The position numbers were made by a program, and so were the translations under genes. Of a stretch of 64,000 nt of DNA, positions 14,280 to 63,651 are shown piece by piece. Source of the stretch: Trichormus sp. M33_DOE_039 (GTDB lineage Bacteria > Cyanobacteriota > Cyanobacteriia > Cyanobacteriales > Nostocaceae); contig DVDT01000073.1 in the NCBI GenBank assembly GCA_015296085.1, positions 1 through 64,000 of the forward strand. The letters run 5' to 3'. Under the pieces are notes generated by a model that saw only the letters and a program-made list of their open reading frames with translations, ran no database searches and was not told the origin of the DNA. Numbering within the stretch: position 1 is the first letter of the stretch; each line of letters opens with the position of its first letter.

Positions 14280-14308
14280 AAACGGATTTTTTTCTTCTTC
14301 CAAACGGA
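14280..14308. promoter_or_regulatory. Twin operator before cassette 1 receptor (ACGGA class)
   Basis: AAACGGATTTTTTT at 14280 and AAACGGAGTTTTTT at 14302 are direct repeats 22 bp apart, about 107 bp upstream of the receptor ATG. They lie between the receptor and the regulator gene, where an AraC-type activator would bind as two adjacent sites. Confidence 0.75.
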
Positions 14309-14339
14309 GTTTTTTGCTAAAGTGAGATGTCGATAAATT

Positions 14340-15359
14340 TTAAATATATTCCTTGTATCTTTTAACTTGATATGCTTTTGGATTCACGCCGAATTTTTTC
14401 TTGAATGCAGAATTAAAGGAACTAGGACTAGCATAGCCAACTGCTTTAGCTACTTCTTGGACTTTCATGTGACCAGTATTTAACAGCATATATGCTTGCT
14501 GCATTCGATAATCGTGTAAATAACCAAAGACTGTTGTGCCAAAAATTTGACGAAAACCCTGCTTTAACTTGCAATCATTCAGTTTTACTTGTCGGGCTAT
14601 TTCTAATAATGAAGGTGGATATTTAAAGTTATTAATTAATATGTCTTTAGCTTGATAAATCCTTTCAATATCATCAGTTTTTATAAGTGATTTATCATCG
14701 GAATTTGACACAGATTCTGTAAACTGGCTAAATTGATGTGTCATCAATTCAATTGCTTTAGCTTCTAAATACAGACGTTTCATTATTCCATGAAAAGGAC
14801 AATTTAAAATCTGCTGTAGAGCTATCTGCATTTCTGGTGTTGTAATTCCCTGACGATAATAAGGTTGTATTTCACCACTCGCAGCAAATATTTGTAATTC
14901 TGAAGGAAGTTGTTGTAACTGATGAGGTTCAAAATCCTGAAAAAATTTTGCAGCTTCAAGGCAAATTTGCACTCTGACAACCTGCTGATTAGCTACATAT
15001 TCATCACTTTCTAGAATATTCGGTGTATATTCTATATAATTACGCCCTACAATTTCATTTGCCGAATTTGTTATACCTTGTAAAATTGTTTGATAGTTAC
15101 CCTTAATAAAAAAACTTAATGTTGTGGTATTAGAATGACCATGCTTGCCAATTTGAATAAAATTATCTGTAGGTTTAAATTCATAAATTCTAATTTTTAA
15201 ACCAGAACGAAGTGGCATATACCATTCCCGCCAAGCAAAATATTTTGTATCTGCTTGTGTATAGTTCTCATCAACACCGCAATTTGAGCTACAGAGATGA
15301 TTCTTTTGATGTTCTTCTAATACTTCTTCCCAATCTTGGTCACAGAACACTATTGTCAT
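14340..15359 (-). CDS. Cassette 1 AraC-family (PchR-type) regulator
   Basis: From the ATG at 15359 (a TTG at 15371 is possible; paralogues also begin MTI-) 339 residues are encoded. The N-terminal ~200 residues are the variable effector part, ending in the group-specific QILNCPFHGIMKRLYLE. The C-terminal AraC domain has a first helix-turn-helix with LNDCKLKQGFRQIFG and a second with AVGYASPSSFNSAFKKKFG. PchR relatives bind a ferri-siderophore and then activate the receptor gene. It belongs to the regulator group paired with ACGGA-class boxes and lies upstream of the receptor on the same strand. Confidence 0.9.
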   Translation of the reverse strand: MTIVFCDQDWEEVLEEHQKNHLCSSNCGVDENYTQADTKYFAWREWYMPLRSGLKIRIYEFKPTDNFIQIGKHGHSNTTTLSFFIKGNYQTILQGITNSANEIVGRNYIEYTPNILESDEYVANQQVVRVQICLEAAKFFQDFEPHQLQQLPSELQIFAASGEIQPYYRQGITTPEMQIALQQILNCPFHGIMKRLYLEAKAIELMTHQFSQFTESVSNSDDKSLIKTDDIERIYQAKDILINNFKYPPSLLEIARQVKLNDCKLKQGFRQIFGTTVFGYLHDYRMQQAYMLLNTGHMKVQEVAKAVGYASPSSFNSAFKKKFGVNPKAYQVKRYKEYI

Positions 15360-15530
15360 AGTTCTCAGCAATTAATATCTTACAGCTACAGTATTTGGTA
15401 TTTATTGAGATTATCTGTCATTATGCTACTATGTCTGTAGGCTAGATAGCAAACAATGTAAAATCTTTTACAAAATTCATTTACTTTTAAGGGAACACCA
15501 GGAAATAAATTATCCGAAACTGATGGTTTG

Positions 15531-16660: not shown

Positions 16661-19249
16661 TTAAAACTCAAAGGAAATTGACCCGATAATTGTAAATGGT
16701 GCGCCCGGAATCACAGTATTTCTACCAAAATTAAATGACTCAATATACCTGATACCAAACAAGTTTTCGATATTGATAGCAGCTTTCCAATTATCTCGCT
16801 TGTAATAAATTGCAGCATCAGTTCGCAGATAACTAGGTAGTGTGAAAGTATCGTCAAACTCAGGGGTAGGAATATCACCACCTACTCTATCGGAAAGATA
16901 AAATAACCCTAAACCAAAGCCAAAACCTTGCAAATTGCCCTGGCGGAATTGATAAGTAGTCCACAAACTAGCTTTATGTTCAGGTACTTTAGGTACTCTA
17001 GAACCAACCCTCAAATCATTACTTTTTGTGACTGTGGCATCTGTATAACTATAAGCAGCAATAATATTCCATCCCGGCAAAATTTCACCAGATATATCTA
17101 ATTCAATTCCTCGACTTCTCTGTTCCCCAACAGGAATGCTAAAGCCATCAGGGTCATTGGGATCGGGCGTAGCAATATTTGTTCTAGTAATTTCATAAGC
17201 TGCTAATGTCGCTGAAAATTTTTCATTCAAATCTGCCTTGATTCCGACTTCATATTGATTACCACGTTCAGGGGGTAAAAATGTACCGTCAGCACGCTGG
17301 GCAAAATTGGGAACGAACGAGCGACTATAACTAGCATAAAGTGAAATCGGTTTAATTGGTTGGTAAACAACACCAATCCGAGGAGTAAAGGCTTCGTCAT
17401 ACTGAAGGGTACGAGTATCTGAAAGTCTATCAAACTGGTCTTGCTCCACAACGTCAAAACGACCACCCAGCATTAACTTGAATTTGTCTGAGAATGCTAT
17501 TTGATCTTGCAAATAAATACCTAATGAATCAGTTCTAGATTTGCCATCTCTAACTACATTGGTTAATTCAGACAGCGCAGGTCTGGGGATAACGTTGTAA
17601 ACCGGGTTAAAAATATTTATTGATGGAGTGAGTCCCCCAGGTAGCCGTCTTTGAGAACCATCGCTCTTTTGTCGAGCCAGATCAAATCCAAACAAGAGTG
17701 TATGTTCAATTGAACCTGTCTTAAATTTACCAACAATATCTGTTAGTAGAGAGTATGTCTCACGGTAATCATCATTAGAACGGAAATTGCGTGATAGTTC
17801 ACCAGTTGCTTCGTCAACTACCAGAGGCTGGGCGCGATAATCAAAAGTATCTTGTGAGGTATAGCGAAAGGCGTTGCGGAGGGTTAATTGGTCACTAAAA
17901 CGATGCTCTAAGCGGTATCCAACATTTACCTCTTCTACTGTGCGTTCATCTCCTGGTTCACCCAAGAATCTACTAGTAGGAATGTCAGCAATACCCCGTC
18001 CAAAAGCAACTATACCTTGATCCATTGTACGCTCATCGTTGACATAACTAACATCAAACAATATGTTAGTGTTCTCACCCAGTTTTAAATCAAAAACTGG
18101 CCCAAAAAAGACTCGCTCACTATTGACAAAATTTCGGAAACTACCAGCATTTTCGTAGGCAACGTTTAGTCGATATAGTAATGATTTATCTGTGTTAAGA
18201 GGGCTTGATAAATCAATGGTAGAACGATAGTAATTGTAGTTGCCTACAGATAAATCGGCAGAGTAATAAGGAGTAGCAAGAGGTTTTTTCGTTACTAAAT
18301 TAATGATTCCCCCTGGTTCAGAATTTCCATATAAAACAGAAGCTGGGCCTTTAAGAACTTCTATTTGCTCGATATTAGCAAGCTCTCGCAATACAAAGCC
18401 GGTTTCTCTTAAGCCATTACGAAAAGTAGAAATAAAATCGAAGCCTCTAAGATTGAAGTTGTCATTTGTCCCGCCAAAAGTATCACCTTCGACAATACCA
18501 CTCACGTTACGAATTGCATCTGTGAGTCGAATAACTTTCTGATCTTCTAAAACTTGTTTAGGAATTACTTGAATTGACTGGGGAATGTCCCGAATTGGGG
18601 TGTCTGTTCTAGTGGCTGCTGATGCTTCTGGGATACGATATGTATCTTGTTCACCCGTAACTACCAGTTCAATAGGTGCTTCATTTTGTGCAGATGGTTG
18701 TTCTGGCTGGGTTTCGTTAATAGGTTGCGGTTCTGGTGGCGTTGGTGTTTGAGTAGTGGTTACAGTTGGGACAACCCCGAAAACTAAACCCTCGTCACCA
18801 TCAAACAATTCGACTTGCGGCGCACCAGTTTCACCTGTTACTGTCACACGAATTGTATTTGCATCTAAATTTGTGACTATAACTTCACTAATTCCCGCAG
18901 TTGGTTTTTCCTGGCGGAATGTATCGCCGCTAGATATGCTCACTTGAGCATTGGGAATCTCAACAATATAGCTATTTCCCTCACTCTTGTTGGTCAGTTG
19001 CAGTTTATCTGATTGATTAGTGGCTAAAATTACCTCTATCCCTTTCTCAGTGGTTTGCAACTTGACATCTGTTACCTGAACCAGAGATTGAGCCAGCCAT
19101 TGTTGAATAGTAGTAGCAGGTTTTTCTATATCACTCAATTGAGAAATTTTTGATATTGGTTTTTGGTTATCTTCCGCTAACGCAGGGAGGTTAACCAATA
19201 CCAAACTCAATCCTGTCATCCAAGCTAGTTTTTGCAATTGATTTGACAT
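16661..19249 (-). CDS. Cassette 2 TonB-dependent siderophore receptor with AMIN domain
   Basis: From the ATG at 19249 (TTG at 19267 is the longer alternative) 862 residues are encoded. Order: signal peptide ending near LPALAED, AMIN domain (GIEVILATNQSDKLQ), linker with TPTPPEPQPINETQPEQP, TonB box PIELVVTGEQD, plug (RDIPQSIQVIPKQVLEDQK, LRGFDF, NIEQIEVLKGPASVLYG, PGGIINLVTKK) and barrel ending IIGSISFEF. The AMIN and linker DNA (about 18660-18960) is nearly the same as in cassette 1 (about 13600-13890), while plug loops and barrel differ, pointing to different ligands. Confidence 0.93.
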   Translation of the reverse strand: MSNQLQKLAWMTGLSLVLVNLPALAEDNQKPISKISQLSDIEKPATTIQQWLAQSLVQVTDVKLQTTEKGIEVILATNQSDKLQLTNKSEGNSYIVEIPNAQVSISSGDTFRQEKPTAGISEVIVTNLDANTIRVTVTGETGAPQVELFDGDEGLVFGVVPTVTTTQTPTPPEPQPINETQPEQPSAQNEAPIELVVTGEQDTYRIPEASAATRTDTPIRDIPQSIQVIPKQVLEDQKVIRLTDAIRNVSGIVEGDTFGGTNDNFNLRGFDFISTFRNGLRETGFVLRELANIEQIEVLKGPASVLYGNSEPGGIINLVTKKPLATPYYSADLSVGNYNYYRSTIDLSSPLNTDKSLLYRLNVAYENAGSFRNFVNSERVFFGPVFDLKLGENTNILFDVSYVNDERTMDQGIVAFGRGIADIPTSRFLGEPGDERTVEEVNVGYRLEHRFSDQLTLRNAFRYTSQDTFDYRAQPLVVDEATGELSRNFRSNDDYRETYSLLTDIVGKFKTGSIEHTLLFGFDLARQKSDGSQRRLPGGLTPSINIFNPVYNVIPRPALSELTNVVRDGKSRTDSLGIYLQDQIAFSDKFKLMLGGRFDVVEQDQFDRLSDTRTLQYDEAFTPRIGVVYQPIKPISLYASYSRSFVPNFAQRADGTFLPPERGNQYEVGIKADLNEKFSATLAAYEITRTNIATPDPNDPDGFSIPVGEQRSRGIELDISGEILPGWNIIAAYSYTDATVTKSNDLRVGSRVPKVPEHKASLWTTYQFRQGNLQGFGFGLGLFYLSDRVGGDIPTPEFDDTFTLPSYLRTDAAIYYKRDNWKAAINIENLFGIRYIESFNFGRNTVIPGAPFTIIGSISFEF

Positions 19250-19321
19250 CACTCTACTCACACGCAAATAAAGGACTGGGGACTGGGTATTGGGAAATCC
19301 TACTTAGAGATTTTTAAATCT

Positions 19322-19386: not shown

Positions 19387-19493
19387 TAACTACCCAATGC
19401 CTCATCTCCAATAGCTGTTATGTTTGTAATTAATAATTACTATCAAGAAGCTTACAGGAAAGCTCTGGTTTATAGTTAAGTGCGTTGAACGCT

Positions 19494-19521
19494 AGACGGA
19501 ATTTTTTGAACGCTAGACGGA
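19494..19521. promoter_or_regulatory. Twin operator before cassette 2 receptor (ACGGA class)
   Basis: AGACGGAATTTTTT (19494) and AGACGGAATTTTTG (19515) lie in a perfect 21-bp direct repeat that also includes GAACGCT before each box. This is the most exact tandem of the nine operators. Confidence 0.75.
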
Positions 19522-19630
19522 ATTTTTGTCTTTTTCCATGATGGAATCAGGTTACTATTACTTGTGTGTGCAGAAGTTTTCAAAATAAAGTTTTGATGCT
19601 AAAAATTCAGACTATTTAATCTTTCTGTTC

Positions 19631-20674
19631 TTACCCTATTAATTCATCAATATTCATAGATTGCCTGGAATTAGCTAGCAAAAACTCTTTGGGATTGATG
19701 CCAAATTTTTTTCTAAAAGCACTGGCAAAGTAGCTGCGACTAGTAAAACCAACGCTACGAGATGCTTTAGAGATACTTGTTTCTCCTGTGACTAACAATT
19801 TCCTAGCTTGCTCTAATCTATGATGATGTAAATAGCTAAATACCGTTGTACCAAATACTAAACGAAATCCACGTTTGAGAGTACAATCATTCAAGCCAAC
19901 TTGCCTAGATAAGTCCCTTAAGGAAGGAGGATTATCTAAATTACGCAATAAAACTTCTTTGGCATAGTGAATCCGTTCGACATCATCAGGCTTGAGAGAA
20001 AATTTATCTTGTTTACCTTGGCGTGCTGCTACATCTTCCTCAACCAGCAATACCATGAGTTCTAAAACTTTACTTTCTAAGTACATTCTTTTCATCATTC
20101 CCTGATAGGGACAATTTAAAATTTGTTGTAATGCTACTTCCATTGCTGGTGTATTAGTACCAGCGCGAGAGTAATATTCTTGATGGGATTGTCTAACCAA
20201 ATGAGCTAATTCCTGTGGTAGCTGATTTTTTTCTTTACCCATAAACAGGTAAAATATCTCTGGTTCTATGTGGACATTGATTTCAATGATTTTCCCTGAT
20301 TTAAATGCTTTAAATCTTTCCTTTGGTGCTAGTCCACTTCCAAATAATATGTTTTGTCCTTTACTAACAAAACAATTTTGTTCTTGGTAATATTTTGCTA
20401 GATAAAAACTGTATTCTAAAGGATGTTGTCGCTCAGGGTTTTTGATAACTAAATCTTCATGTAATTGATGTTCTGAAATTGCTAAGTGTAACCCATTCCG
20501 TAATTCTATTTCTCCCCAAAATCCTGTACCCAAATTTTGTGGGAATGGACAAAATGTATCAAATATATTCCAGGATTTTCCTAACATCGGGGAAAGCATC
20601 TGTACACTGGCTTCTGTTTCCGGTATATCTACAAATAATTCCCAAAATTCTTTTTGTGAAATGGTAATTGTCAT
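19631..20674 (-). CDS. Cassette 2 AraC-family (PchR-type) regulator
   Basis: From the ATG at 20674 (TTG at 20686 possible) 347 residues are encoded. The effector part contains QILNCPYQGMMKRMYLESK; the DNA-binding part has LNDCTLKRGFRLVFGTT and SVGFTSRSYFASAFRKKFG. It lies upstream of its receptor on the same strand and belongs to the ACGGA-box regulator group. The N-terminal part, with a CPFPQNLGTGFWGEIELRNG segment, is only weakly like that of cassette 1, as expected if the ligand differs. Confidence 0.9.
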   Translation of the reverse strand: MTITISQKEFWELFVDIPETEASVQMLSPMLGKSWNIFDTFCPFPQNLGTGFWGEIELRNGLHLAISEHQLHEDLVIKNPERQHPLEYSFYLAKYYQEQNCFVSKGQNILFGSGLAPKERFKAFKSGKIIEINVHIEPEIFYLFMGKEKNQLPQELAHLVRQSHQEYYSRAGTNTPAMEVALQQILNCPYQGMMKRMYLESKVLELMVLLVEEDVAARQGKQDKFSLKPDDVERIHYAKEVLLRNLDNPPSLRDLSRQVGLNDCTLKRGFRLVFGTTVFSYLHHHRLEQARKLLVTGETSISKASRSVGFTSRSYFASAFRKKFGINPKEFLLANSRQSMNIDELIG

Positions 20675-20998
20675 AACTGTGAGCAAGATATGTCAGTCAG
20701 TTTTCAATACAAAGCTGGTATGAGCAGCATTTATGAGCAAACACAGCAAATAACAGCTTATTGAAATTAATTAGCACTAGATTAATTAGAATAGCTTTTT
20801 ATTATACCGATTTTTGGTTGTTGATCATACTAATGCTTTGCATATTATTCTCAATTACTGAAGGGGAAATATTAAAATGCAATAAATAGGCATAATTAGC
20901 CGTAAAATACGAAAATTAGCTGATAAAAATTCTCTACTGCCCTCTGACAGCTTCTCAAATCAGCCGCCAAAATATGGCTTGTTTATAGCTAAAGTTTT
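20675..20998. other. Divergent intergenic region before the ABC pair
   Basis: The region separates the cassette 2 regulator (minus) from the ABC pair (plus). It is AT-rich. ATTAGC occurs twice 20 bp apart (20895 and 20915) within a larger imperfect repeat, which might be an operator, but it does not match the ACGGA or TATCC boxes. I see nothing else. Confidence 0.35.
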
Positions 20999-30212: not shown

Positions 30213-30317
30213 AAGCTTTATCCCACACCACAAGCGGCTGTTAGCCACCTAAATTAAGAATCTTTTTCAAAAACGATACATGGAATTGATTTGATTTTGA
30301 AGGCTTATGTGAATCCC

Positions 30318-30345: not shown

Positions 30346-30391
30346 TTTTTAGGATAGTCTGACAGCAAGTAGCTGTATTTAATTGCAGATA

Positions 30392-50646: not shown

Positions 50647-53229
50647 TTAAAACTGAAAAGAAACAGTTCCTTGGACTACAAATGGCTCACCAGGGTATAC
50701 ATTTGCTCTGTTTAATGCAGAATCAAAATAATCAACATCGAATAGGTTCTTGAAATTGAGGGCGGCACGGAATCTTTCTCGCTTGTAAAAAATGGTAGCA
50801 TCAGTACGCACATAGCTGGGTAATTCAAAGGTATTTGGTAAAGTTCCTTGGCGATCGCTAACATAAAATAGTCCTAAACCAAAACCTAATCCTTGCAAAC
50901 TACCAGATGAGATTTCGTAGGTTGTCCAGAGGCTAGCAGAGTGTTGTGGTACATTATTCAAGCGATCGCCAACTGGCAAGTCGTTGTCTTTTGTAACTAT
51001 GGCATCGGTTAAACCATAGCTAGCAATTATGTTCCAACCGGGTAAGATTTCACCGGATATGTCAAATTCAATACCTCTACTCCGTTGTTCGCCTACCTGA
51101 ATCGAAAAGTCTGGATCTCTGGGGTCGGTAGTAGCTACGTTAGAACGGGTCAATTCAAAGAAGGCGAGGGTTGCAGAAAGTCTGTCAGTCAAATCTGCTT
51201 TGATCCCGACTTCGTACTGAGTCCCCCGTTCTGGCTGAAACAATTCACCATCCAAGCTTCTACCAGTCGATGGCAGAAATGAACGGCTGTAGCTAGCGTA
51301 AAGTGAAATTGGTTTAATTGGTTGATAAACAATCCCTACTCGTGGACTGAAAGCTTCTTGTTGTTGCGACTCTTTACTGCCACTCACCAGCAGATCCTCA
51401 CTAGTCTGCTGTACGATATCAAAGCGACCTCCCAGCACCAGCTTCAAGTTTTCAGCTAGAGTCACTTGATCCTGAATATAAAATCCATATAAGTTAGTAG
51501 AACTATCAAACTCGAATGGATTCCCTGGCTTGACAATTGGTTGATTGTAAATTGGGTTGAACACATCGATAGATGGAGCAAAACCATCATCAGGATATCT
51601 GTCTTGGTTAACCTGTCTAAAGTAGTTAAACCCGATGACTAATTGATGATTAATACTACCTGTGGTAAAGTTACCCGCTGTGTAGGTATCAAAGTTAAAG
51701 TTACTGTAGTTACTCTCGCCTTCACTATAAATTCTGTTCAAGGTACGGTTATCTGCATCTAAACTTACTGGTAGTATCCAGTCCTTGCGCGTCCGACTGA
51801 ACCAGGTAGCCTTAAAAGCACTACGTAATTGCCAATCATCACTCAAACGATGTTCCAGGTCATAACCAACTCGAAATACACTGGAATTATCTGTGCTGAA
51901 TGGTTCAGAAAAGTTGCGATCGCGGCGAATTTCTCCCAAAGGATTCGGTAATACGCTACCGACAGCTGGTAAACCCATCTGACCCTGATCTTTAGGGCGA
52001 TCGATATATTCTGCTGCTAATGTGAGTTTAGTGCGATCGCTAATTAGCCAAGTCAGTGTGGGAGCAATGACATACTCTTGTGCATCATAGAAATCAACAA
52101 AGCTTTCCGTTGTCTGAGCAGAGGCATTCAAGCGATATAACAAGGTTTTATTGTCATTCAAAGGGCCTGAAAGGTCAATCGTACCACGGTAGAAATTGTA
52201 GCTACCAGCCGAAAATTCAACTGAATAGTAAGGTTCTGCAAGCGGTTTTTTGGTAACAAGGTTAACCACACCTCCCAGCGTCCCTTGTCCGTAGAGAACA
52301 GAGGCCGGCCCCTTCAGCACCTCAATCCTCTCGATAGTCGTAGTATTAAAACCAAGAGATGAATTGTTGGGGTCTCTTAACCCATCTGTGAGGATATCAT
52401 CATCCGACGCAAAACCTCGAATTAGAGGTATTGAAAAGAAACCCCTAGTTGATGAATTAACTCCCTGCGATACACCCGATACGTTTCTGAGTGCTTCGCG
52501 CAAGTTCGTTACCTGTTGATCCTCTAGCACTTGTCGAGGAACTACCTGAATTGATTGAGGAATATCGCGTAATGGCGTATCGGTTTTTGTAGCAGTAGTC
52601 ACATTCGGTACACGATAGCCATCTTGCTCTCCCGTTACCACTAATTCAATCGGATCATCTTGCTGTGCTGCTGATGCTTCTGGCGGTTGCTGTGTAGATG
52701 ATGCGGTTATTGCTACTCCAAAAATTAAACCTTGGTCACTATCAAATAACTCAACTTTTGGCTGACTTGCTTCACCTGTCACTATCAGTCGGATAGTATT
52801 TGTATCTACATTAGTTACAGTCAACACTGTAATTCCACTAGCTGGGTTTTCTTGGCGACATTCATCACCCGACGGTAACATCAACTGTGCATTAGGGATA
52901 TCTGCAATAAAGTTATTTCCCTCACTCCGAGTCACAGGTTGTAACTTATCTGAACCTGTAGTTTCTAAAATGACTTCTAGTTCCTGTTGGCTGGAATTCA
53001 GCTTGACTCCTGTTACCTTTACTACCTCTACATTGTTAGACTCTTGCGCTAACAATGTCGCCATACTAGTAGAGAATTTTTCTCTTTGGTTGAGTGTTAG
53101 TAGTTGTTCATCCCTTCTCACCCTGCTGACAAGTTTGATGAGAGTTTCTGCTTGTGCTGGTTCAACTAGAACTACAGTAAGGATCATCAACCAAAATCTT
53201 AAATCAAAAATAGGCGATCGCTTGACCAT
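50647..53229 (-). CDS. Cassette 6 TonB-dependent siderophore receptor with AMIN domain
   Basis: The ATG at 53229 has GAGGAG eight bases upstream and gives 860 residues; a GTG at 53250 is the longer option. Order: signal peptide ending PAQAET, AMIN domain (ELEVILETTGSDKLQP; a Cys in DECRQEN is unusual), short linker, TonB box PIELVVTGEQD, plug (RDIPQSIQVVPRQVLEDQQ, IRGFASD, IERIEVLKGPASVLYG, GGVVNLVTKK) and barrel ending VQGTVSFQF. The linker is the shortest of the eight. Confidence 0.93.
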   Translation of the reverse strand: MVKRSPIFDLRFWLMILTVVLVEPAQAETLIKLVSRVRRDEQLLTLNQREKFSTSMATLLAQESNNVEVVKVTGVKLNSSQQELEVILETTGSDKLQPVTRSEGNNFIADIPNAQLMLPSGDECRQENPASGITVLTVTNVDTNTIRLIVTGEASQPKVELFDSDQGLIFGVAITASSTQQPPEASAAQQDDPIELVVTGEQDGYRVPNVTTATKTDTPLRDIPQSIQVVPRQVLEDQQVTNLREALRNVSGVSQGVNSSTRGFFSIPLIRGFASDDDILTDGLRDPNNSSLGFNTTTIERIEVLKGPASVLYGQGTLGGVVNLVTKKPLAEPYYSVEFSAGSYNFYRGTIDLSGPLNDNKTLLYRLNASAQTTESFVDFYDAQEYVIAPTLTWLISDRTKLTLAAEYIDRPKDQGQMGLPAVGSVLPNPLGEIRRDRNFSEPFSTDNSSVFRVGYDLEHRLSDDWQLRSAFKATWFSRTRKDWILPVSLDADNRTLNRIYSEGESNYSNFNFDTYTAGNFTTGSINHQLVIGFNYFRQVNQDRYPDDGFAPSIDVFNPIYNQPIVKPGNPFEFDSSTNLYGFYIQDQVTLAENLKLVLGGRFDIVQQTSEDLLVSGSKESQQQEAFSPRVGIVYQPIKPISLYASYSRSFLPSTGRSLDGELFQPERGTQYEVGIKADLTDRLSATLAFFELTRSNVATTDPRDPDFSIQVGEQRSRGIEFDISGEILPGWNIIASYGLTDAIVTKDNDLPVGDRLNNVPQHSASLWTTYEISSGSLQGLGFGLGLFYVSDRQGTLPNTFELPSYVRTDATIFYKRERFRAALNFKNLFDVDYFDSALNRANVYPGEPFVVQGTVSFQF

Positions 53230-53318
53230 TCCCACACTCCTCATATACACCCAACTTATAGAAAATAGTTCTCAATTAGGTCGTATAACAGAGTCTAGGG
53301 ATTTTTCATCATCTGGTC

Positions 53319-53355
53319 TATCCGCAAAAGCAGCACAATTATCCACAAAAGGCGG
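53319..53355. promoter_or_regulatory. Twin operator before cassette 6 receptor (TATCC class)
   Basis: TATCCGCAAAAGC (53319) and TATCCACAAAAGGC (53340) are direct repeats 21 bp apart, 90 bp before the receptor ATG. They match the boxes of cassettes 7 and 8 in position and orientation. Confidence 0.7.
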
Positions 53356-53434: not shown

Positions 53435-54418
53435 TCACACCACGCCCTTAAGACAATCGCTGGGGGAAATCCCAAATTTACGTTTAAAATTTACAGAAAA
53501 CCGCCCTAAATGTGAATACCCCACCGCATTTGCTACTTCTGCTATACTCATCCCTCTTTCATATAAAAGTAGTCGTGCTTGTTCCATGCGATATTGATGC
53601 AAATATTGAAAAGTGCTAACACCAAAAACTTTTTGAAAACCCACTTTTAATTGATATTCGCTAATTCCCACTTTTGCTGCTAATTCCGACAATGAAGGTG
53701 GGTTGTCTAGATGGCGTTCTAAAATATTTTTTGCATGATATATTCGTTCAATAATATGTCGTTTTAAGGTCTTTTGATGATTAGAACTTATTTCCTCTAT
53801 CTTATCTTGTTGCAGCCGCAAAGCTATTAATTCCATCACCTTACTCTCTAAGTAAATCCTTTTAAATAAACCTTCAAAGGGACATTGTATAATTTGCTGT
53901 AATACTACCTGCATTTGAGTAGTAATTTTGCCAACTCCGACGTAATTTTCTTGGTCGAATTTACGGAATAAACGTTTTAATTCTGGAGTGATGGCATTAT
54001 CTTGAATATCAAGGAATGCCTTAAGTGAATCTGCTTCTATATGAATATCAATAGTTTTCATTGCTTGAGAATATTGTACTGATGCTTGTGCAGCCATCCC
54101 ACAACCAGATAAAGCGGTTTCACCAACACGAACTGAGCAATTTTCTAAACTACAGTTAAGATTACCCGCAAGAAAAAACGACAACTGCAAACAATGTTCA
54201 CGTTCTGGCAATTCCACAGTTACGGGTTCGCGCCATTGATATTCTGAGATTGTGAGAACAAGCCCTGTACGTAACTCTATATCTTGAAGATATCCCTCAG
54301 CGTATTCGTTGAGATATTGAGAGAAGCTTTCACAACAACCTTTCAAGTTAACCGTTTGACTTGATGCTACAGGTTGCAGTAAATTTGAGTAATCTTCAAG
54401 CGAAACTTTCATGCTCAT
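53435..54418 (-). CDS. Cassette 6 AraC-family (PchR-type) regulator
   Basis: The 327-residue protein starts MSMKVSLEDYSNLLQP. It contains QIIQCPFEGLFKRIYLESK, a first DNA-binding helix with VGISEYQLKVGFQKVFG and a second with AVGYSHLGRFSVNFKRKFG. These helices place it with cassettes 7 and 8, whose receptors carry TATCC-class boxes. The effector part has SFFLAGNLNCSLENCSV, unlike other cassettes. Confidence 0.9.
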   Translation of the reverse strand: MSMKVSLEDYSNLLQPVASSQTVNLKGCCESFSQYLNEYAEGYLQDIELRTGLVLTISEYQWREPVTVELPEREHCLQLSFFLAGNLNCSLENCSVRVGETALSGCGMAAQASVQYSQAMKTIDIHIEADSLKAFLDIQDNAITPELKRLFRKFDQENYVGVGKITTQMQVVLQQIIQCPFEGLFKRIYLESKVMELIALRLQQDKIEEISSNHQKTLKRHIIERIYHAKNILERHLDNPPSLSELAAKVGISEYQLKVGFQKVFGVSTFQYLHQYRMEQARLLLYERGMSIAEVANAVGYSHLGRFSVNFKRKFGISPSDCLKGVV

Positions 54419-55626: not shown

Positions 55627-55634
55627 CTAACAAC

Positions 55635-58346
55635 CTAAAACCTCCATGAAATCGATCCTTGAACAGTGAAAGGTTCGCCTGGATCGACAAATGTTCCAGA
55701 ACCACTAGCTTGATAATAATCAACATTGAAGAGATTACGGAAATTTACGGCAGCACGGAATTGTTCGCGTTCATAGAAAACTGCTGCATCTGTACGGAAG
55801 TAACTAGGAACCTCGAAAGTATTAGCCAAATCTGCTGCTCTGTCTCCAACATAATAAAAGCCTAATCCCAATCCCAGCCCTTGCAAATCACCTTGTTGGA
55901 TTCTGTAGGTTGTCCAAAGATTAAATGAGTGTTCGGGAGCAGAAAATAAGCGATTACCCACTGGAATTATATTATCTTTCGTAACTCTAGCATCAGTGTA
56001 AGCATAGCCTGCAATAATATTCCATCCTGGTAAAATTTCGCCACTAATATCTAACTCAATTCCTCGACTGTTTTGTTCTCCAGTTTGAACCGAAAAGTCA
56101 GGATTATCAGGATCGACTGTCGTCACATTGGAGCGCGTCAAATCATAAAAGGCCAGGGTAGCCGAAAGTCTGTCATTCACATCTGCTTTAATACCCACTT
56201 CATACTGGGTTCCTCGTTCTGGGAGGAATGCTGCTCCCGTAGCAGATCTACCAATTGTCGGAGCAAAAGATCGCGCGTAACTAGCATATAAAGAAATGGA
56301 CGGAATGGGTTGGTAAACAATTCCGACACGTGGACTAAATGCGGTGTCTGATTGACTAGTTTCTAGATCCGTAAGTCGATTAATTTTGCGCTCCTCCAAG
56401 ATATCCACTCGTCCACCTAGCAGAAGCTTCAAGTTTTCAGCGAAAGTAATTTGATCTTGGAGATAAATGCCAAGGGTATCTCTGGTTGTAAACTGAACGA
56501 AGTTACGACCAGTAGAAACAACTGTTTGATCGTAGACTGGATTGAAAATGTCTACCGGATTAGCAGGAATTCCAAATTCAAAACTGAGATCAGTTATATT
56601 TCGACTCAAACTAACGCCAAATAAAAGTTGGTGATTGATGGAGCCAGTGCTGAATTTACCCAGTAAATTGGTATCTAGATAATAGAAATCATAAAATTGA
56701 CTGCCAATAGAAGCACTTCGATTTAGCGTGCGATTATCATCTGCTAGACTAGTGGGAGAAATAGCATAAGGCGCTCCACCGCGATCGTCATCATCCGCGA
56801 ACACATAGCGGAAGGCATTACGCAGCTTCCAACTTTCGCTAAATCGATGCTCTAAGCTATACCCAATTCTGCCTTGAATTGTCAGGTTTTCCGTTAATCG
56901 ACCTATGGCGTTAAAACTACGACGCACTCTACCATTGGGGTTCGGCAGTATACTACCCACTGCTGGTAATCCACTCGATGACTGTCCATTTCTTTCCAAT
57001 CTGTTGACATCACCCTCGATTACTAGGTCTGTATTTTTACCCAGGTTAAAGCTCAAACTGGGAGCAATAGAAAACTTTCTAGCTTGGTTAAAGTCAATGA
57101 AACTCTGGGTACTGCGATAACCAATATTCAAGCGGTAGAGAGCCATTTTAGAATCATTCAACGGCCCTGAAAAATCGATCGCTCCCTGATAGTCGTCAAA
57201 ACTACCAATAGTCGCGCTAATTTCGTAGAATGGATCGCGCAATGGTTGTTTAGTAACGAAGTTGACAGTACCGCCAATACCACTAAATCCAGTTTCGCCA
57301 TACAAAACAGACGCAGGCCCCTTTAAAACTTCTAAGCGTTCTATATTGACAAAGCCGCCATCTGAAGTAATTTGTGGATCGGGAAGTCCATTGACGAGAG
57401 AGTTTGAATATACCTCAAAGCCTCGAATCGTAAAATAGTCTCTACTTGCAGTTGAGCTAGAAATTGAGGTGACACCGCTAACGTTTTCCAAGCCATCTGT
57501 AATGCTTCTGGCGTTGCGATCGCGCAATACTTCTTTTGGTACAACTTGAATTGACTGGGGAATATCTCGCAATGGGGTATCTGTTTTCGTTCCCACTGAG
57601 GTATCTGGTACGCGATAGTTGTCTTGCTCCCCTGTCACTACCAACTCAATTGGCTCGTCCTGTTGCGCTGCGGGTTGTTCTTCGGGTGTCTCTGTTGCTG
57701 GTTGTTCTTCTGTTTGTGGTGTTTGGGGTTGCTGTGCAGATGTTGTTGTAGAGACTACTGCAAAAATTAACCCTTCATCTCCATCAAATAACTCAACCGC
57801 AGGTACAATCTTCTCCCCAGCCACAGTTACCCGCACAGTATTAGCATCAATATTTGTAACTGTGATTTGAGTAATTCCCTCAATGGGTTTCTCCGAGTTA
57901 AATGTGAAAGCATCCCCATTGGGTAAACGTAACTGAGCATTAGGGATATCTGCAATAAAGTTATTACCCTCACTGCGATTTGTAACTTGCAGTTGTTCCC
58001 CTTGGGTTGTCTCTAAAATTACCTCCACACCTTTATCTGTGGGATTTGCCTTGACTCCTGTAATGAGTACAGTTGATTGAGTATCAGGAGTGGGTGATTG
58101 AGAAAATAAATCTTTAGCGCTAGTAGCGGGAAAATCGGTTTCGCTGACTGTTTTGATTCTGGTGACAACTGTATCTTGCTCTTTGTATGATGCTAATACC
58201 TGTTCAGGTTGAGCAAGTACACTACTGCAAATCCCGACTAGACTCGCCATCGAACAAAGATAAATGTCGAGCGTTGGCGATCGCCACTCCCAAAGGGGGT
58301 ATCGCGCACAGCACTTGTTATGATCAGCAAAATGCCAACTTTTCAT
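55635..58346 (-). CDS. Cassette 7 TonB-dependent siderophore receptor with AMIN domain
   Basis: The ATG at 58346 (GGGGAG upstream; GTG at 58358 possible) gives 903 residues, about 40 more than the paralogues. The excess is at the N-terminus, where a HIP1-containing repeat (58266-58317) is translated before the hydrophobic signal segment. Then follow AMIN (GVEVILETTQGEQLQ), linker, TonB box PIELVVTGEQD, plug (RDIPQSIQVVPKEVLRDRN, IRGFEVY, NIERLEVLKGPASVLYG, GGTVNFVTKQ) and barrel ending VQGSISWRF. Confidence 0.92.
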   Translation of the reverse strand: MKSWHFADHNKCCARYPLWEWRSPTLDIYLCSMASLVGICSSVLAQPEQVLASYKEQDTVVTRIKTVSETDFPATSAKDLFSQSPTPDTQSTVLITGVKANPTDKGVEVILETTQGEQLQVTNRSEGNNFIADIPNAQLRLPNGDAFTFNSEKPIEGITQITVTNIDANTVRVTVAGEKIVPAVELFDGDEGLIFAVVSTTTSAQQPQTPQTEEQPATETPEEQPAAQQDEPIELVVTGEQDNYRVPDTSVGTKTDTPLRDIPQSIQVVPKEVLRDRNARSITDGLENVSGVTSISSSTASRDYFTIRGFEVYSNSLVNGLPDPQITSDGGFVNIERLEVLKGPASVLYGETGFSGIGGTVNFVTKQPLRDPFYEISATIGSFDDYQGAIDFSGPLNDSKMALYRLNIGYRSTQSFIDFNQARKFSIAPSLSFNLGKNTDLVIEGDVNRLERNGQSSSGLPAVGSILPNPNGRVRRSFNAIGRLTENLTIQGRIGYSLEHRFSESWKLRNAFRYVFADDDDRGGAPYAISPTSLADDNRTLNRSASIGSQFYDFYYLDTNLLGKFSTGSINHQLLFGVSLSRNITDLSFEFGIPANPVDIFNPVYDQTVVSTGRNFVQFTTRDTLGIYLQDQITFAENLKLLLGGRVDILEERKINRLTDLETSQSDTAFSPRVGIVYQPIPSISLYASYARSFAPTIGRSATGAAFLPERGTQYEVGIKADVNDRLSATLAFYDLTRSNVTTVDPDNPDFSVQTGEQNSRGIELDISGEILPGWNIIAGYAYTDARVTKDNIIPVGNRLFSAPEHSFNLWTTYRIQQGDLQGLGLGLGFYYVGDRAADLANTFEVPSYFRTDAAVFYEREQFRAAVNFRNLFNVDYYQASGSGTFVDPGEPFTVQGSISWRF
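58266..58317. repeat. HIP1-containing dispersed repeat inside the signal region of the cassette 7 receptor
   Basis: The stretch contains GGCGATCGCC followed by ACTCCCAAAGGGGGTATCGC, a pattern common in intergenic repeats of Nostoc-like genomes. Here it is translated (minus strand) as RYPLWEWRSPTLD. Confidence 0.65.
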
Positions 58347-58439
58347 ACCACTCCCCACACCACTAAAACAATACTACTTATTGCGTATCTTTCTTAATTG
58401 CAATAAGCCAGAGTGTAGAGGAATTGAACTAGTCGAGTC

Positions 58440-58470
58440 TATCCCAAAACAATACTTATAGTCCCGAAAC
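58440..58470. promoter_or_regulatory. Twin operator before cassette 7 receptor (TATCC class)
   Basis: TATCCCAAAAC (58440) and TAGTCCCGAAAC (58459) are about 20 bp apart, 94 bp before the receptor ATG. The boxes overlap the 3' end of the regulator gene, and the second is the weakest match of the class. Confidence 0.6.
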
Positions 58471-59454
58471 AAGGTTTCTACCCAAAAAACATTCTTTTGG
58501 CGTGATACCGAACTTGCGTTTAAAGGCAGCAGCGAAATGTCCTAAATGAGAATAGCCGACAATGTTAGCAACTTCCGCAACTGTAAAATCACTATTCTGT
58601 AACAACTGATGGGCTTGTTCCATACGCTGATTTGTCAGATAAGCAAACACCGTTGTCCCAAACTGCATCTGAAACCCTTTTTGCAAGGTACTCTCGCTCA
58701 CACCTACTGTTTGTGCTAACTCTGACAATAAGGGTGGATTTTCTAAACGAGCTTGTAAAATTTCTTTGGCATAATGGATTTTGGCAATAGTGTCTCTTTT
58801 TAATCGCGGTGGTAATTGCCTGACCTTATTGTCTTCTAAAAAAGGAGCTAACTGCAAAGCCATCAATTCTATTACCTTACCCTGTAAATACATCCGCTTG
58901 GTTGTCCCCTGATAAGGACAGTTAAGAATTTGCAGCACCACACCTTGAATAGCTGGATTAGTTTTGGGATAAATTAATGTTTGCCAATCGCTTTCTTTTG
59001 CCAAAAATTGCAACTGAGGTAACATTTCTCCATCCTTTCCAGGGAAAAAAGTCCTCAGCAAATGGGTTGGCATGATAATATCGACACCCAAAATCCTTTG
59101 GGAATGACAATAAGCTGAATCAGCTTGGCGTTGAACGCCACCACCAGAAATAAATGTGTGTCCTCCCCCAACTTGGCCACAAGTGTCTGTGTACATCCCT
59201 AAAGCTAAAGCACCAAACTGGAAAGGATGATTACTTTCTGGAATTTTCAGTATTATGTCGTGGTCATATTCTTTATCGATAATAATTAGCCAAAGTTCAG
59301 GATAAACTTCAATTGCTCGATAGTACCCTCTACCAAGCTGTTTGGGTATTTCCTCAAGATGTTCATATGGTTCTAACGCTGGGTAGCATGTATTATTTTC
59401 CTTGCTTTTCTCCAACAGTTCATCGTAGTCTTTGATTGTTAAGGTGATTGTCAT
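58456..59454 (-). CDS. Cassette 7 AraC-family (PchR-type) regulator
   Basis: The ATG at 59454 (TTG at 59463 possible) gives 332 residues starting MTITLTIKDYDELLEK. It contains QILNCPYQGTTKRMYLQGK, VGVSESTLQKGFQMQFGTT and IVGYSHLGHFAAAFKRKFG. The second DNA-binding part is nearly that of cassette 8. Its gene ends across the receptor operator, so the two genes are packed tightly. Confidence 0.9.
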   Translation of the reverse strand: MTITLTIKDYDELLEKSKENNTCYPALEPYEHLEEIPKQLGRGYYRAIEVYPELWLIIIDKEYDHDIILKIPESNHPFQFGALALGMYTDTCGQVGGGHTFISGGGVQRQADSAYCHSQRILGVDIIMPTHLLRTFFPGKDGEMLPQLQFLAKESDWQTLIYPKTNPAIQGVVLQILNCPYQGTTKRMYLQGKVIELMALQLAPFLEDNKVRQLPPRLKRDTIAKIHYAKEILQARLENPPLLSELAQTVGVSESTLQKGFQMQFGTTVFAYLTNQRMEQAHQLLQNSDFTVAEVANIVGYSHLGHFAAAFKRKFGITPKECFLGRNLVSGL

Positions 59455-59550
59455 TGCTAGCAATTATCAAGATTTAATGATAATTAATCTCAATAATTTT
59501 ACCATTAAGTTGAGTGATAGTAATGCAAAAGAGAAAGACTTTAGCTAGTT

Positions 59551-60904: not shown

Positions 60905-60919
60905 GAAAACCTTAACTGT

Positions 60920-63532
60920 TCAAAACTCCCAAGAAATAGTTCCCTGAACTGTAAATGGCGCACCAGGAGAGACGCGCAAGCGACTAAAAGCATTTTCAAA
61001 ATAGTCTACGTTGAAGAGGTTTTTGATATTGATTGCAGCACGCAATCTGTCTTTTTTGTAGAAAATAGCAGCATCTGTAGTGAAATAACTAGGTACTTCA
61101 AATGTATTTCCAGTGTCTCCGGCGCGATCGCCTACATAAAACAATCCTAATCCAAAGCCTAAACCCTGCAAATTACCTCGTTGAATTTCATAGGTTGTCC
61201 ATAAGCTAGCAGCATGGGGAGTTGTCCGTTGCACGCGGTTGCCTACGGGAATAGTATTATCTTCGGTGACACGAGCATCATTGTAAGCATAACTCGCAAA
61301 GACATTCCATCCCGGTAAAATTTCACCTGTAAGACTCAGTTCAATACCTTGGCTGCGCTGTTCTCCAGTTTGAATCGAAAAGCCTACGTTATTTGGGTCT
61401 TCAGTTAAAATATTTGATTGGGTAATGTCATAGAAAGCGAGTGTAGCCGAAAGCCGACTATGCAAATCTGCTTTCACCCCAACTTCGTACTGTGTACCCC
61501 TTGTCGGCTCAAAGTCACTACCATCAAAGGCTTGACCAATAGCTGGTTCAAAGGAGCGACTGTAGTTAGCATAAAGGGAAATGGGTGGAATTGGTTGATA
61601 GACAATGCCCACACGGGGACTAAAGGCACTTCCTGATTGACTTGTTTCTGTATCGGCGAGAAAATCTTTGTTATTTTGGGTGAAGGTATCAAATCTACCA
61701 CTGATGAGTAACTTCAAGTTATCGGCGATCGCCACCTGATCTTGTATGATAATGCCAAGTTCATCAGTGACGGTATTAGTATCAAGCTCAAATGTGACTG
61801 CTCCCGCCGGTTGACCGTAAATCGGATTAAATAAGTCAATGGGTGCGCCCGATCTACTGGTAAATTTTAAAGTATTGTTCAGCCTTCCTAGATCAATACC
61901 AAATAGTAATTGATGCTCGATTGCACCTGTCGCAAATTTGCCGATAACATTTGTTGTTAGTCTATAGTCACGATAGCGATCATTGGAATCGTTAGCTGTT
62001 CTTAGTAGCGTGCGATTATCGTCTAAAAGCCTTGTCCCAATATTGACACCAGTACTATCGTAGTTCAGATATCCATACCGAAAAGAATTATTTAATGACC
62101 AATTCTCATTAAATTTATGCTCTAATCTATATCCAATCCTGGCAGTTGTGACATCAAGCTCACCTTCATTGGTAATGCGGCTACGGGGTATATCACCATT
62201 AGGATTAGAAAATATAGTTCCAATCGCAGGTAAGCCCAAATTGTAATTCTCTTGCTCTAGATTCTTATAAATTCCTTCAATGGTCAGATTCGTATTCTTG
62301 CTCAGTTCCAGACTCAAAACCGGCGCAATTACTAAGTTTCTAGTTTGGCTCAGATCAGTGAAAAATCCTTGATCTCTGTAAGATGCGTTCAGCCGATATA
62401 GTGCTTTTTTCTCATCATCTAGTGGCCCCGATAAATCCACCTCACCACGATAAAAATCAAAACTACCCACAGTTGCTTCAACAAAGTAGTAAGGATCTCG
62501 TAAAGGCTGTTTGGTGACGAAGTTGACTGTTCCACCGGGAGATGTTGAACCCAGTAAAACTGAGTTTGGGCCTAGAAGAATTTCGATATTTTCGATTCCT
62601 GTCAAATCAGGCCCCACATTAGAGGCTAAACCGTTAGTCTCCTTAATCCCATTCACAGTAGGTTGACTAAAAAAGCCTCGTACTTGCAATCGCAACGAGT
62701 CAAAATTAGAAGGTGCTGCGTTACGCACACTGGGAGCATTCAGCAGCGCGCTAGATATGTCGGCGCGTTGATCCCGCAACACTTGTTGGGGAATAATCTG
62801 AATCGATTGGGGAATATCTCGCACTGGTGTATCTGTCCGCGTTGTAGTTGAAGCATTGGGGACACGATATCTATCCTGCTCTCCCGTGACTACTAACTCG
62901 ATTGGTTCATCCTGTTGTGTTGCTGCTTCTTCTAGTGGTGTTTCACTTGCTGGCTGTTCTTGGGGTTGCTGCATTGCCGTTGTTGTAGATACAACTGCAA
63001 AAATCAGCCCTTCATCTCCATCAAATAATTCAACTGTGGGCAAAGTGTTCTCACCCAATACCATAACTCGTATATTATTAGCATCAATATTTATTACGGT
63101 GATTTCAGTAATTCCAGCAAGCGGTTTTTCCGAACGGAATGTGAAAGCTTCTCCTGAAGATAAACGTAACTGAGCATTGGGAATATCTGCAATAAAGTTA
63201 TTACCCTCACTACGATTTGTGATTTGCAGTTGATCTCCTTGGGTTGTTTCTAAAATTACCTCGACACCTTTGTCTGTGGGATTTGCTTTTACACCCGTGA
63301 TGGTAATAGCTGCTGCTGGAGTTGCAGGAGAATTGGTTGGTGTTGGTGATTGAGACAACAAACCATTAATGCTAGTAACTGGGGCTTTAAATTCCCCTAG
63401 TTCAATGATTTCTGGATTTTCCCCTTTCACCTCAGCCACAGCCGTTTGGGCGGTAGCACAATTAATAAAATATCCTAATAAACTAATACCTAACCAAAAA
63501 CGCACATTTGGTAGAAATGTCAAGTTAGTCAC
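60920..63532 (-). CDS. Cassette 8 TonB-dependent receptor with AMIN domain and divergent plug motif
   Basis: A GTG at 63532 (VTNLTFLPNVRFWLG; GGAGAAGGGC upstream) or at 63544 gives about 870 residues. Order: signal peptide, AMIN (GVEVILETTQGDQLQ), linker, TonB box PIELVVTGEQD, plug and barrel ending VQGTISWEF. The plug motif reads NIEILLGPNSVLLGSTSPGG where all other cassettes have EVLKGPASVLYG or EFLKGPASVLYG, and the preceding helix has SALLNAPSVRNAAPS. It may therefore gate or bind differently. Confidence 0.92.
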   Translation of the reverse strand: MTNLTFLPNVRFWLGISLLGYFINCATAQTAVAEVKGENPEIIELGEFKAPVTSINGLLSQSPTPTNSPATPAAAITITGVKANPTDKGVEVILETTQGDQLQITNRSEGNNFIADIPNAQLRLSSGEAFTFRSEKPLAGITEITVINIDANNIRVMVLGENTLPTVELFDGDEGLIFAVVSTTTAMQQPQEQPASETPLEEAATQQDEPIELVVTGEQDRYRVPNASTTTRTDTPVRDIPQSIQIIPQQVLRDQRADISSALLNAPSVRNAAPSNFDSLRLQVRGFFSQPTVNGIKETNGLASNVGPDLTGIENIEILLGPNSVLLGSTSPGGTVNFVTKQPLRDPYYFVEATVGSFDFYRGEVDLSGPLDDEKKALYRLNASYRDQGFFTDLSQTRNLVIAPVLSLELSKNTNLTIEGIYKNLEQENYNLGLPAIGTIFSNPNGDIPRSRITNEGELDVTTARIGYRLEHKFNENWSLNNSFRYGYLNYDSTGVNIGTRLLDDNRTLLRTANDSNDRYRDYRLTTNVIGKFATGAIEHQLLFGIDLGRLNNTLKFTSRSGAPIDLFNPIYGQPAGAVTFELDTNTVTDELGIIIQDQVAIADNLKLLISGRFDTFTQNNKDFLADTETSQSGSAFSPRVGIVYQPIPPISLYANYSRSFEPAIGQAFDGSDFEPTRGTQYEVGVKADLHSRLSATLAFYDITQSNILTEDPNNVGFSIQTGEQRSQGIELSLTGEILPGWNVFASYAYNDARVTEDNTIPVGNRVQRTTPHAASLWTTYEIQRGNLQGLGFGLGLFYVGDRAGDTGNTFEVPSYFTTDAAIFYKKDRLRAAINIKNLFNVDYFENAFSRLRVSPGAPFTVQGTISWEF

Positions 63533-63618
63533 GCCCTTCTCCACACCAGTAAACGAAATTATTGCGTAAACTTCTCAGTTATATAGAGGTAGTTTAGAGA
63601 AATAGGCGCGATCGCGTC

Positions 63619-63651
63619 TATCCAAAAATGGCGTTAATATCCCAAAACGGC
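63619..63651. promoter_or_regulatory. Twin operator before cassette 8 receptor (TATCC class)
   Basis: TATCCAAAAATGGC (63619) and TATCCCAAAACGGC (63638) are direct repeats 19 bp apart, 87 bp before the receptor start. The same two boxes, each with one base changed, precede the ABC exporter at 8042. Confidence 0.75.

Follow-up and report, generated by a model that had tools for sequence, protein, structure and literature searches.

Helix residues of AraC-type regulators appear to predict letters of twin operators in cyanobacterial siderophore cassettes

The window analysed here, the first 64,000 nucleotides of contig DVDT01000073.1 of the cyanobacterium Trichormus sp. M33_DOE_039 (GCA_015296085.1), contains eight siderophore cassettes, each with an AraC-type regulator, a TonB-dependent receptor and a twin repeat between them. 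The receptor gene adjoins the regulator gene in all eight, and all eight regulators score above the Pfam cut-off for HTH_18, which places them in the AraC/XylS family. Every receptor carries the Pfam barrel, plug and AMIN domains, and receptor 2 in addition matches the TonB-dependent siderophore receptor model TIGR01783 (431 bits). Except in cassette 4 (plus strand), regulator, putative operator and receptor lie on the minus strand.

Cassette 1 consists of receptor 11594..14182, putative operator 14274..14313 (ACTCCGTTT / AATCCGTTT) and regulator 14340..15371 (helix motifs LNDCKLK and ASPSSF; HTH_18 68.5 bits), while cassette 2 comprises receptor 16661..19267, putative operator 19486..19526 (ATTCCGTCTAGCGTTC in both copies) and regulator 19631..20686 (LNDCTLK, TSRSYF; 69.4 bits). 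In cassette 3, the receptor (27606..30248) is followed by the putative operator (30310..30350) and the regulator (30392..31375; LNDYKLK, ANQSRF; 88 bits); in cassette 4, the order on the plus strand is regulator (31717..32703; LNDYKLK, TNQSHF; 85.2 bits), putative operator (32732..32772) and receptor (32881..35451). Cassette 5 has a PepSY_TM gene (41514-42653; Pfam PepSY_TM) between its putative operator (41382..41424) and its regulator (42726..43745; LNDCTLK, SSRSAF; 71.6 bits), with the receptor at 38655..41234. The putative operators of the last three cassettes are of the GGATA type: cassette 6 at 53316..53355 (receptor 50647..53250; regulator 53435..54418, ISEYQLK, SHLGRF, 83.5 bits), cassette 7 at 58437..58472 (receptor 55635..58358; regulator 58456..59463, VSESTLQ, SHLGHF, 83.4 bits) and cassette 8 at 63616..63652 (receptor 60920..63544; regulator 63653..64000 and on to contig position 64654, ISDRTLR, SHLGHF, 85.5 bits over the full gene, L001). 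The gene end of regulator 7 runs into the first box of its cassette. All helix motifs are as a preceding sequence-only reading of this DNA had written them. Its count of eight cassettes is correct for the window, yet it did not list a ninth twin box of the GGATA type (7904..7942, plus strand), upstream of an ABC-transporter gene (8042-9865, plus strand), and its series goes on past cassette 8: cassettes 9 and 10 follow shortly beyond the window's right edge, cassette 11 is on another contig, and their helices and boxes fit the same pattern. This genome encodes 11 such regulators; two relatives have 17 and 22.

Twin direct boxes, proposed at 19-22 bp for each receptor, are present in 8/8 cassettes between regulator and receptor, with lags of 22, 21, 21, 21, 22, 21, 20 and 19 bp for cassettes 1-8. 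The AnACGGA(A/T)TTT boxes described for cassettes 1-5 exist as well, together with a second box half that had been left unused, and their degenerate letter is the exact base specified by the residue-base code described below. A single box type for these five cassettes does not hold for cassette 1, which is mixed (ACTCCG and AATCCG). In a wider first set, 171 of 208 regulators (duplicates included) were receptor-adjacent; the 37 without a downstream receptor were removed, as were 28 of the 171 pairs for identical regulator ends, leaving 143. Of these 143 pairs, 75 have a near-perfect repeat with a lag of 21 or 22 bp, compared with about 0.05 per lag in shuffles, and in the shuffled controls that had been called for, run as Markov-chain shuffles, 6.3 of 143 pairs reach a twin-site score of 18. 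Genome-wide motif counting was dropped as support. Across the 7.0-Mb genome, the pattern TCCGYYT-N13..16-TCCGYYT matches 8 times, five of these being the operators of cassettes 1-5, compared with 13 for the reversed-pattern control, and TTTNNRGATAGAC has 18 matches, 5 of them in promoters of cassettes 6-10, compared with 18. Match numbers do not exceed the controls, while five matches per pattern lie in cassette promoters; hence location is enriched and count is not. In the proposed comparison with frequency elsewhere, twin sites scoring at least 18 precede 193/249 regulator-adjacent receptors versus 50/869 other genes, and some of these 50 sites look real. A figure of 44/63 'lone receptors' with a twin site was set aside because many of these had lost their regulator through duplicate removal or a cut locus. 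GGATA-type sites are poorly resolved (twin score at least 14 in 20 of 48 such regulators, none in 4), and these regulators were handled apart because a TCCG-anchored search missed or misplaced many of their sites.

Box class goes with the DNA-binding helices, as had been claimed, at the locus as well as in held-out regulators and beyond relatedness. Among the window cassettes, box identity correlates with the helices (Mantel rho 0.80, p 0.006) rather than with the sensor domain (rho 0.19, p 0.21). The division into two box classes is valid as a coarse view, but the finer pattern is a per-residue code in two halves, and a blind residue-base scan supports the reading that HTH1 goes with the left and HTH2 with the right half of the box. 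For its first run, 34 of the 143 pairs were removed for scores below 18 and three more by a length filter (106 used; another filter left 107 for the HTH2 comparison below), while a second run used 191 regulators. Recognition-helix positions rank top, and column 255 with base -1 leads both runs; of the 20 highest-ranking pairs, 12 fall within the 20 helix columns, where each helix couples solely to its own half, and 8 lie outside the recognition helices, mostly in the sensor domain. Natural mixed regulators are found too: L137 combines VNQRKLK with SHLSHF, the second copy of its site reads AGTCCGTCTATGGATA, and L119 and L062 are close variants of it. Such regulators are better evidence for a shared register than cassette 3, which had been proposed as a bridge to one ancestral site. 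That proposal is weak, because the resemblance is confined to the second copy and GGG right halves recur with cassette 3's own helix type, NQSRF.

The HTH1 residues at MarA positions 42/43 probably set the base before TCCG. In our numbering, 255/256 correspond to MarA W42/H43 and 304 to MarA Q91; columns 255, 258 and 259 align with MarA W42, Q45 and R46. With both site copies tabulated, Cys-Thr at 255/256 is accompanied by T (123/126), Tyr-Lys by A (61/62), Phe-Lys by A (23/26), Arg-Lys by G (45/46) and Asn-Lys by C (20/22), so that a single position pair is associated with all four bases. In this genome, regulator 2 is of the Cys-Thr type, regulators 3 and 4 of the Tyr-Lys type and regulator 11 of the Asn-Lys type. 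Cys-Lys occurs with several bases (C 15, A 6, G 1), and less common pairs, Tyr-Thr and Tyr-Ala among them, show no regular pattern. As a general rule, His255 for C was too loose and was rejected, and 7 of the 16 held-out misses fall on His255. Held-out regulators scarcely exercised the Asn rule: a single case (Asn-Ala) had both bases wrong.

The right half seems to be set by HTH2 residues less strictly than the left by HTH1. In tables over both site copies, Arg304 goes with C (173/180), Leu304 with A (39/44) and Asp303 with C (27/30), while Pro304 for G was rejected as a general rule (27/48), since it breaks down outside the Arg255 class. On held-out sites, the HTH2 rules gave a clear gain over the commonest base at +9 (90/164 versus 51/164) and, with three residues, at +11 (71/98 versus 31/98), were barely better at +13 (108/152 versus 101/152) and no better at +7 and +8. 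In single-column accuracy for base +13, sensor-domain column 103 ranks above 304.

The residue-base rules were fixed in writing before held-out regulators were scored. The held-out regulators came from 80 stretches picked by hand among the candidates listed, of which the best 7 per genome were scored. Eleven of 127 regulators were dropped for lack of a receptor, 14 of 116 for at least 90% identity to training, 18 of 102 pairs for lack of a scorable site and 22 of 84 for lack of a written prediction. Some of the genomes are the same strains as first-set contigs; the identity cut-off of 90% takes out regulators that recur, but strains common to both sets stay in. Of the 124 bases predicted, the written rules had 108 right (shuffles averaged 38.9 and reached at most 66). 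With classes refined on all data, the comparison within genomes gave 197 of 218 correct (shuffles: mean 86.8, maximum 120). That a residue predicts its base regardless of evolutionary distance was found for HTH1 and base -1, and more weakly for HTH2.

The same data bear on linkage, i.e., inheritance of regulator and box as a block, in which case any regulator column would correlate with the box without reading it. Cassettes do travel as blocks, the sensor domain correlates weakly with box identity across all 11 cassettes of this genome (rho 0.26, p 0.06), and some sensor-domain columns are coupled to bases; however, coupling is strongest in recognition-helix columns. The base is shared by distant backgrounds of the same helix class (agreement in 76-94% of comparisons, with classes refined on all data) and not by closer ones of another class (7-22% below 75% background identity, on the same refined classes); the exception is three other-class pairs above 75% identity, which agree at 83%. 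A conflict test kept 31 regulators: in each, the nearest relative by sensor domain falls in another class, the two predictions differ, and at least 4 same-class bases at <50% identity are there to learn from. It, like the second run of the scan, started from 191 regulators, as 2 of 193 with gapped ends were left out. Here, again with the refined classes, the code was right for 54 of 62 bases and the nearest relative for 4 of 62. With about 31 base changes on the sensor-domain tree of 187 regulators in addition, linkage alone is very improbable.

Promoter layout speaks to how the sites might be used. TANNNT, a candidate -10, occurs at +46 in 99/191 cases (expected 6.4) and a Fur-like inverted repeat in 142/185. 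As improbable as linkage alone is a real code whose regulators repress or chiefly control themselves, given that twin sites precede 193/249 receptors versus 12/269 regulator genes, that they lie upstream of the -10, and that IutR relatives are reported as activators (PMC11221513). Least probable is that the boxes belong to Fur, a sigma factor or a second activator while the local AraC protein binds elsewhere: the Fur-like repeat does occur in the same promoters, but as a separate element downstream of the boxes, and boxes of one genome vary among cassettes in step with the helices of the adjacent regulator.

The residue-base code is our preferred explanation, with a probability of roughly 0.87 for the whole. 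Each cassette would be a self-contained siderophore-uptake unit, in which two monomers of a PchR/IutR-type AraC regulator, probably under ligand control, would occupy a pair of direct sites separated by about two turns of the DNA helix, upstream of the TonB-dependent receptor gene. The left half of each site, made up of an A-tract, a variable base and TCC[G/C], would be contacted by the monomer's first helix-turn-helix, and the right half, at about +8 to +13, by its second. TCC would be fixed by helix residues that hardly vary, and the variable bases would be chosen by a few that do: 255/256 for the base before TCC, 304 for base +13, and 303, 305 and 306 for bases +9 to +12. Once bound, the two monomers probably activate a promoter with its -10 at a fixed distance, and the Fur-like repeat near the start would hold it off when iron is plentiful. 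In duplicated cassettes, helix residues and boxes would change together, so that paralogues would be insulated from each other.

The AraC family ranks among the largest regulator families of bacteria, and because its sites are asymmetric and degenerate, operators are difficult to predict. In these cassettes, regulator-receptor adjacency hands over the operator, duplication provides many paralogues and one position pair spans all four bases, which together make an AraC code decidable by few swaps. A few regulator amino acids appear to predict site letters, suggesting a simple recognition code, and such a code would let one match a regulator to the system under its control where many siderophore systems coexist. 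More tentatively, and at somewhat less than even odds, a modular two-helix code may set operators nearly letter by letter across the AraC family, with cassette duplication opening insulated channels. The same helix positions may predict operators of AraC regulators outside cyanobacteria. Among 10 plasmid loci (one cyanobacterial), too small a sample for a verdict and analysed without shuffle control, the best repeat lag is 21 in Azospirillum, two Shinella, Spirosoma and Pseudoalteromonas; the Spirosoma locus has Phe-Lys with A before TCCCG, which fits the code.

PchR of Pseudomonas aeruginosa, a siderophore-responsive AraC activator of its receptor gene with a PchR-box, resembles the present regulators by description. 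No AraC-family recognition code, and nothing relevant on base contacts of AraC itself, was found in open-licence PubMed Central, the scope of the search. IutR1-3 of Synechocystis PCC 6803 are likewise PchR-like AraC proteins adjoining TonB-dependent transporter genes; they bind TBDT promoters and are termed activators (PMC11221513). Their motifs were derived from ChIP-seq with HOMER; the text does not use the term 'direct repeat', and its passages on IutR1-3 state no residue-base rule (PMC11221513). In MarA, W42, Q45 and R46 of helix 3 are described as base contacts whose mutation alters specificity, in line with the positions found here, but those variants are laboratory-made, in one helix of one monomeric protein, and represent no natural code (PMC3315485). 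Comparative-genomic residue-base correlations reported for the MerR, GntR and IclR families (PMC5045206, PMC4494728, PMC8222616) are kindred in approach and concern families other than AraC. A close likeness is to the LacI family, for which Camas, Alm and Poyatos (2010; PMC2978694) used local regulation to infer residue-base rules that apply family-wide and regardless of distance, as here. The LacI code, as presented there, links two residues to two bases (PMC2978694), whereas the AraC code would involve two helices per monomer, several positions and two site halves, and its rules were fixed before testing.

The window belongs to a host genome of 7.0 Mb and contains eight cassettes, in each of which an AraC regulator is located upstream of a TonB-dependent receptor in the same orientation. 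The receptors comprise 856-907 residues with AMIN, plug and barrel domains in all eight, and the single receptor compared with NCBIfam was assigned to the siderophore type by TIGR01783. Cassettes 9 and 10 are found just to the right of the window (C44, the same contig, 65947-74676; 5947-14676 in the fetched stretch L001), followed by a short receptor-like piece (C44 75279-75743) that, judged by eye, may be a remnant; cassette 11 is located on another contig of the same genome. Interspersed with the cassettes are an ExbB-type gene at 44973-45668 and, at 46274-49227, a transporter of FecCD-FecCD-ATPase composition, which probably constitute shared energising and inner-membrane uptake parts. In cassette 5, a PepSY_TM gene (41514-42653) is interposed between the regulator on one side and the operator and receptor on the other, and a phage tail sheath-like protein near the left edge (5611-7269; Pfam Phage_sheath_1 and 1C) is apparently unrelated to the cassettes. 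Among the best 80 matches to the regulators, 78 of 79 named loci have cyanobacterial titles and one is a metagenome bin labelled Gracilibacteria.

All eight receptor promoters contain the twin direct repeats described in the sequence-only reading, with lags of 22, 21, 21, 21, 22, 21, 20 and 19 bp in cassettes 1-8. A motif-free check determined self-similarity at each lag from 13 to 59 within at most 430 bp around the receptor start in 143 regulator-receptor pairs (208 regulators, 171 of them paired, 28 duplicates dropped). With at least 11 of 12 letters matching, lag 21 was detected in 51 pairs, lag 22 in 24 and lag 20 in five; dinucleotide shuffles yielded at most 0.05 passing pairs for lags 20-22, and the remaining lags reached 0-3 in the real data. 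The lag-21 and lag-22 pairs are 75 distinct pairs of the 143. Twin sites show specificity for receptors: they precede 193 of the 249 receptors that have a regulator beside them (a count separate from the 193 sites of the base -1 analysis) versus 12 of 269 regulator genes and 50 of 869 other genes. A ninth twin box, of the GGATA type, is present at 7904-7942 (+ strand), upstream of an ABC transporter gene (8042-9865) for which similar boxes exist in three other fetched loci (L021, L121, L128); by eye, its letters fit best to regulators 8 or 10.

Box identity in the eight window cassettes tracks the identity of 20 helix residues (Mantel rho 0.80, p 0.006) and does not track sensor-domain identity (rho 0.19, p 0.21); extending the comparison to 11 cassettes gives rho 0.61 (p 0.0014) for the helices and 0.26 (p 0.06) for the sensor domain, with box registers positioned by hand in all these comparisons. 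The earlier proposal that two box classes follow the helices is borne out by these correlations and holds outside the window, beyond the sequence available to that reading, where cassettes 9 and 10 combine HLG helices with GGATA-type boxes, and cassette 11 combines INDN/NQS helices with TCCG-type boxes. Two classes do not exhaust the relationship, since a column-base scan revealed a finer per-residue code underneath. The scan register was anchored on TCCG, and base -1, immediately before TCCG, was excluded from the site score except for a minor copy-likeness term that includes it. Across profile columns and 26 base positions in 106 regulators, column 255/base -1 ranked first (1.42 bits) and column 304/base +13 second; when 326 usable columns were scanned over 191 regulators, the pairs ranked 255/-1, 256/-1, 304/+13, 259/-1, 306/+9, 308/+12 and 303/+10. 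Twelve of the 20 best pairs fall on the 20 helix columns, and among these, columns of the first helix-turn-helix (HTH1) couple only to -1 and +2 and those of the second (HTH2) only to +9 to +13; the other eight involve columns 79, 111, 158, 201, 205, 103, 301 and 318. Columns 255 and 303 align with AraC residues 209 and 257 (K-12 reading frame), which we take to be known DNA contacts. Columns 255, 258 and 259 align with MarA Trp42, Gln45 and Arg46 (numbered as in the paper, which runs two residues longer than the K-12 record), the base-contacting residues of MarA helix 3 according to PMC3315485.

For residues 255-256, considering both copies of 193 sites, base -1 is T with Cys-Thr (123/126) and Phe-Thr (9/10), A with Tyr-Lys (61/62) and Phe-Lys (23/26), G with Arg-Lys (45/46) and Arg-Thr (11/16), and C with Asn-Lys (20/22), His-Lys (15/22) and Cys-Lys (15/22), while less frequent pairs are irregular. 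For HTH2 (191 regulators), base +13 is C with Arg304 (173/180), A with Leu304 (39/44), G with Pro304 (27/48) and mixed with Gln304; Asp303 is associated with C at +10 (27/30), and among Arg304 regulators Gly305 is associated with A at +11 (35/38). The two halves are modular: for combinations represented by three or more regulators, the HTH1 class fits base -1 in 62-100% irrespective of HTH2, and Arg304 or Leu304 fits +13 in 75-100% irrespective of HTH1. The Pro304 rule breaks outside the Arg255 class. The GGATA-type regulators (cassettes 6-10) are the code's least resolved part; a twin score of at least 14 is reached in 20 of 48.

The HTH1 rules were fixed in writing before 291 genomes of the class were searched and 80 stretches picked from the list. 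These provided 127 new regulators, 116 with a receptor downstream, 102 less than 90% identical to training (median best identity 54%), 84 with a scorable twin site and 62 with a prediction. Base -1 was correct in 108/124 bases and in both copies for 50/62 regulators, compared to a mean of 38.9 and a maximum of 66 in 10,000 label shuffles; below 60% identity to training, 62/76 bases were correct. Misses in bases were His 7/16, Arg 3/18, Cys 2/50, Phe 2/12, Asn 2/2 and Tyr 0/26, and thus support for the Asn rule derives from the training data. The held-out set also added a refinement: when Cys, Phe or Tyr is followed by Thr, Ser or Ile at 256, base -1 is mostly T. The HTH2 rules learned on training were weaker here, with 108/152 at +13 versus 101 by constant C, 90/164 at +9 versus 51, and no gain at +8 and +7.

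Ancestry was weighed against the code using the refined classes. Regulators of the same class agree at base -1 in 76-94% across all background-identity levels, and those of unlike class in 7-22% below 75% background identity; three unlike-class pairs closer than this agree in 83%. The sensor-domain tree of 187 regulators contains approx. 31 base changes and 33 residue-class changes, and sister pairs share the base in 51/52 cases within a class and in 3/7 between classes. For 31 regulators whose nearest sensor-domain relative belongs to another class with a differing prediction, the code was correct for 54/62 bases and the nearest relative for 4/62. Permuting regulators within 21 genomes with at least three pairs reduced agreement from 197/218 to a mean of 86.8 (maximum 120), a comparison that used the refined rules and is not a held-out test.

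A TANNNT hexamer starts exactly 46 bp past T0, the T of TCCG, of the second box in 99/191 promoters versus 6.4 expected per offset, and a second group at 35-37 bp is about one helical turn nearer. Arg304 regulators have only the far hexamer in 69/90 cases, and the near one accompanies Pro304 in 18/24 and Leu304 in 15/22; two promoter geometries are associated with residue 304. Mostly 54-58 bp past the same T0, receptor promoters contain an inverted repeat resembling TGANAATNATTNTCA, which we take to be a Fur consensus. At least 9 of its 12 defined letters match in 142/185 promoters versus 2/185 immediately upstream and 16 in shuffles; the repeat is present in six of the eight window promoters and weaker in cassettes 7 and 8. 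This arrangement suggests that receptor expression would require two conditions: low iron, upon which Fur would leave the promoter, and occupancy of the twin box by a regulator loaded with its ligand. The analysis establishes the sites, their spacing and the covariation, while contact with the bases, activation, ligand control and insulation of paralogues are what we infer. Relatives in Synechocystis, termed activators in PMC11221513, bind TBDT promoters in gel-shift and yeast one-hybrid assays.

The 21-bp lag is also found in some of nine non-cyanobacterial plasmid loci (the tenth is from a cyanobacterium), a sample too small for rules. Such repeats, identified without a shuffle control, occur beside PchR-like regulators on plasmids of Azospirillum (L284), Shinella (L290, L293) and Spirosoma (L286), in the regulator-receptor gap in the first three loci and in a divergent intergenic stretch in L286. 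As regards precedents, residue-base correlation studies exist for other families, namely MerR, GntR and IclR. No comparable AraC code was found in searches of the open-licence literature. A recognition code of similar kind, linking residues to bases, has been reported for the LacI family (PMC2978694).
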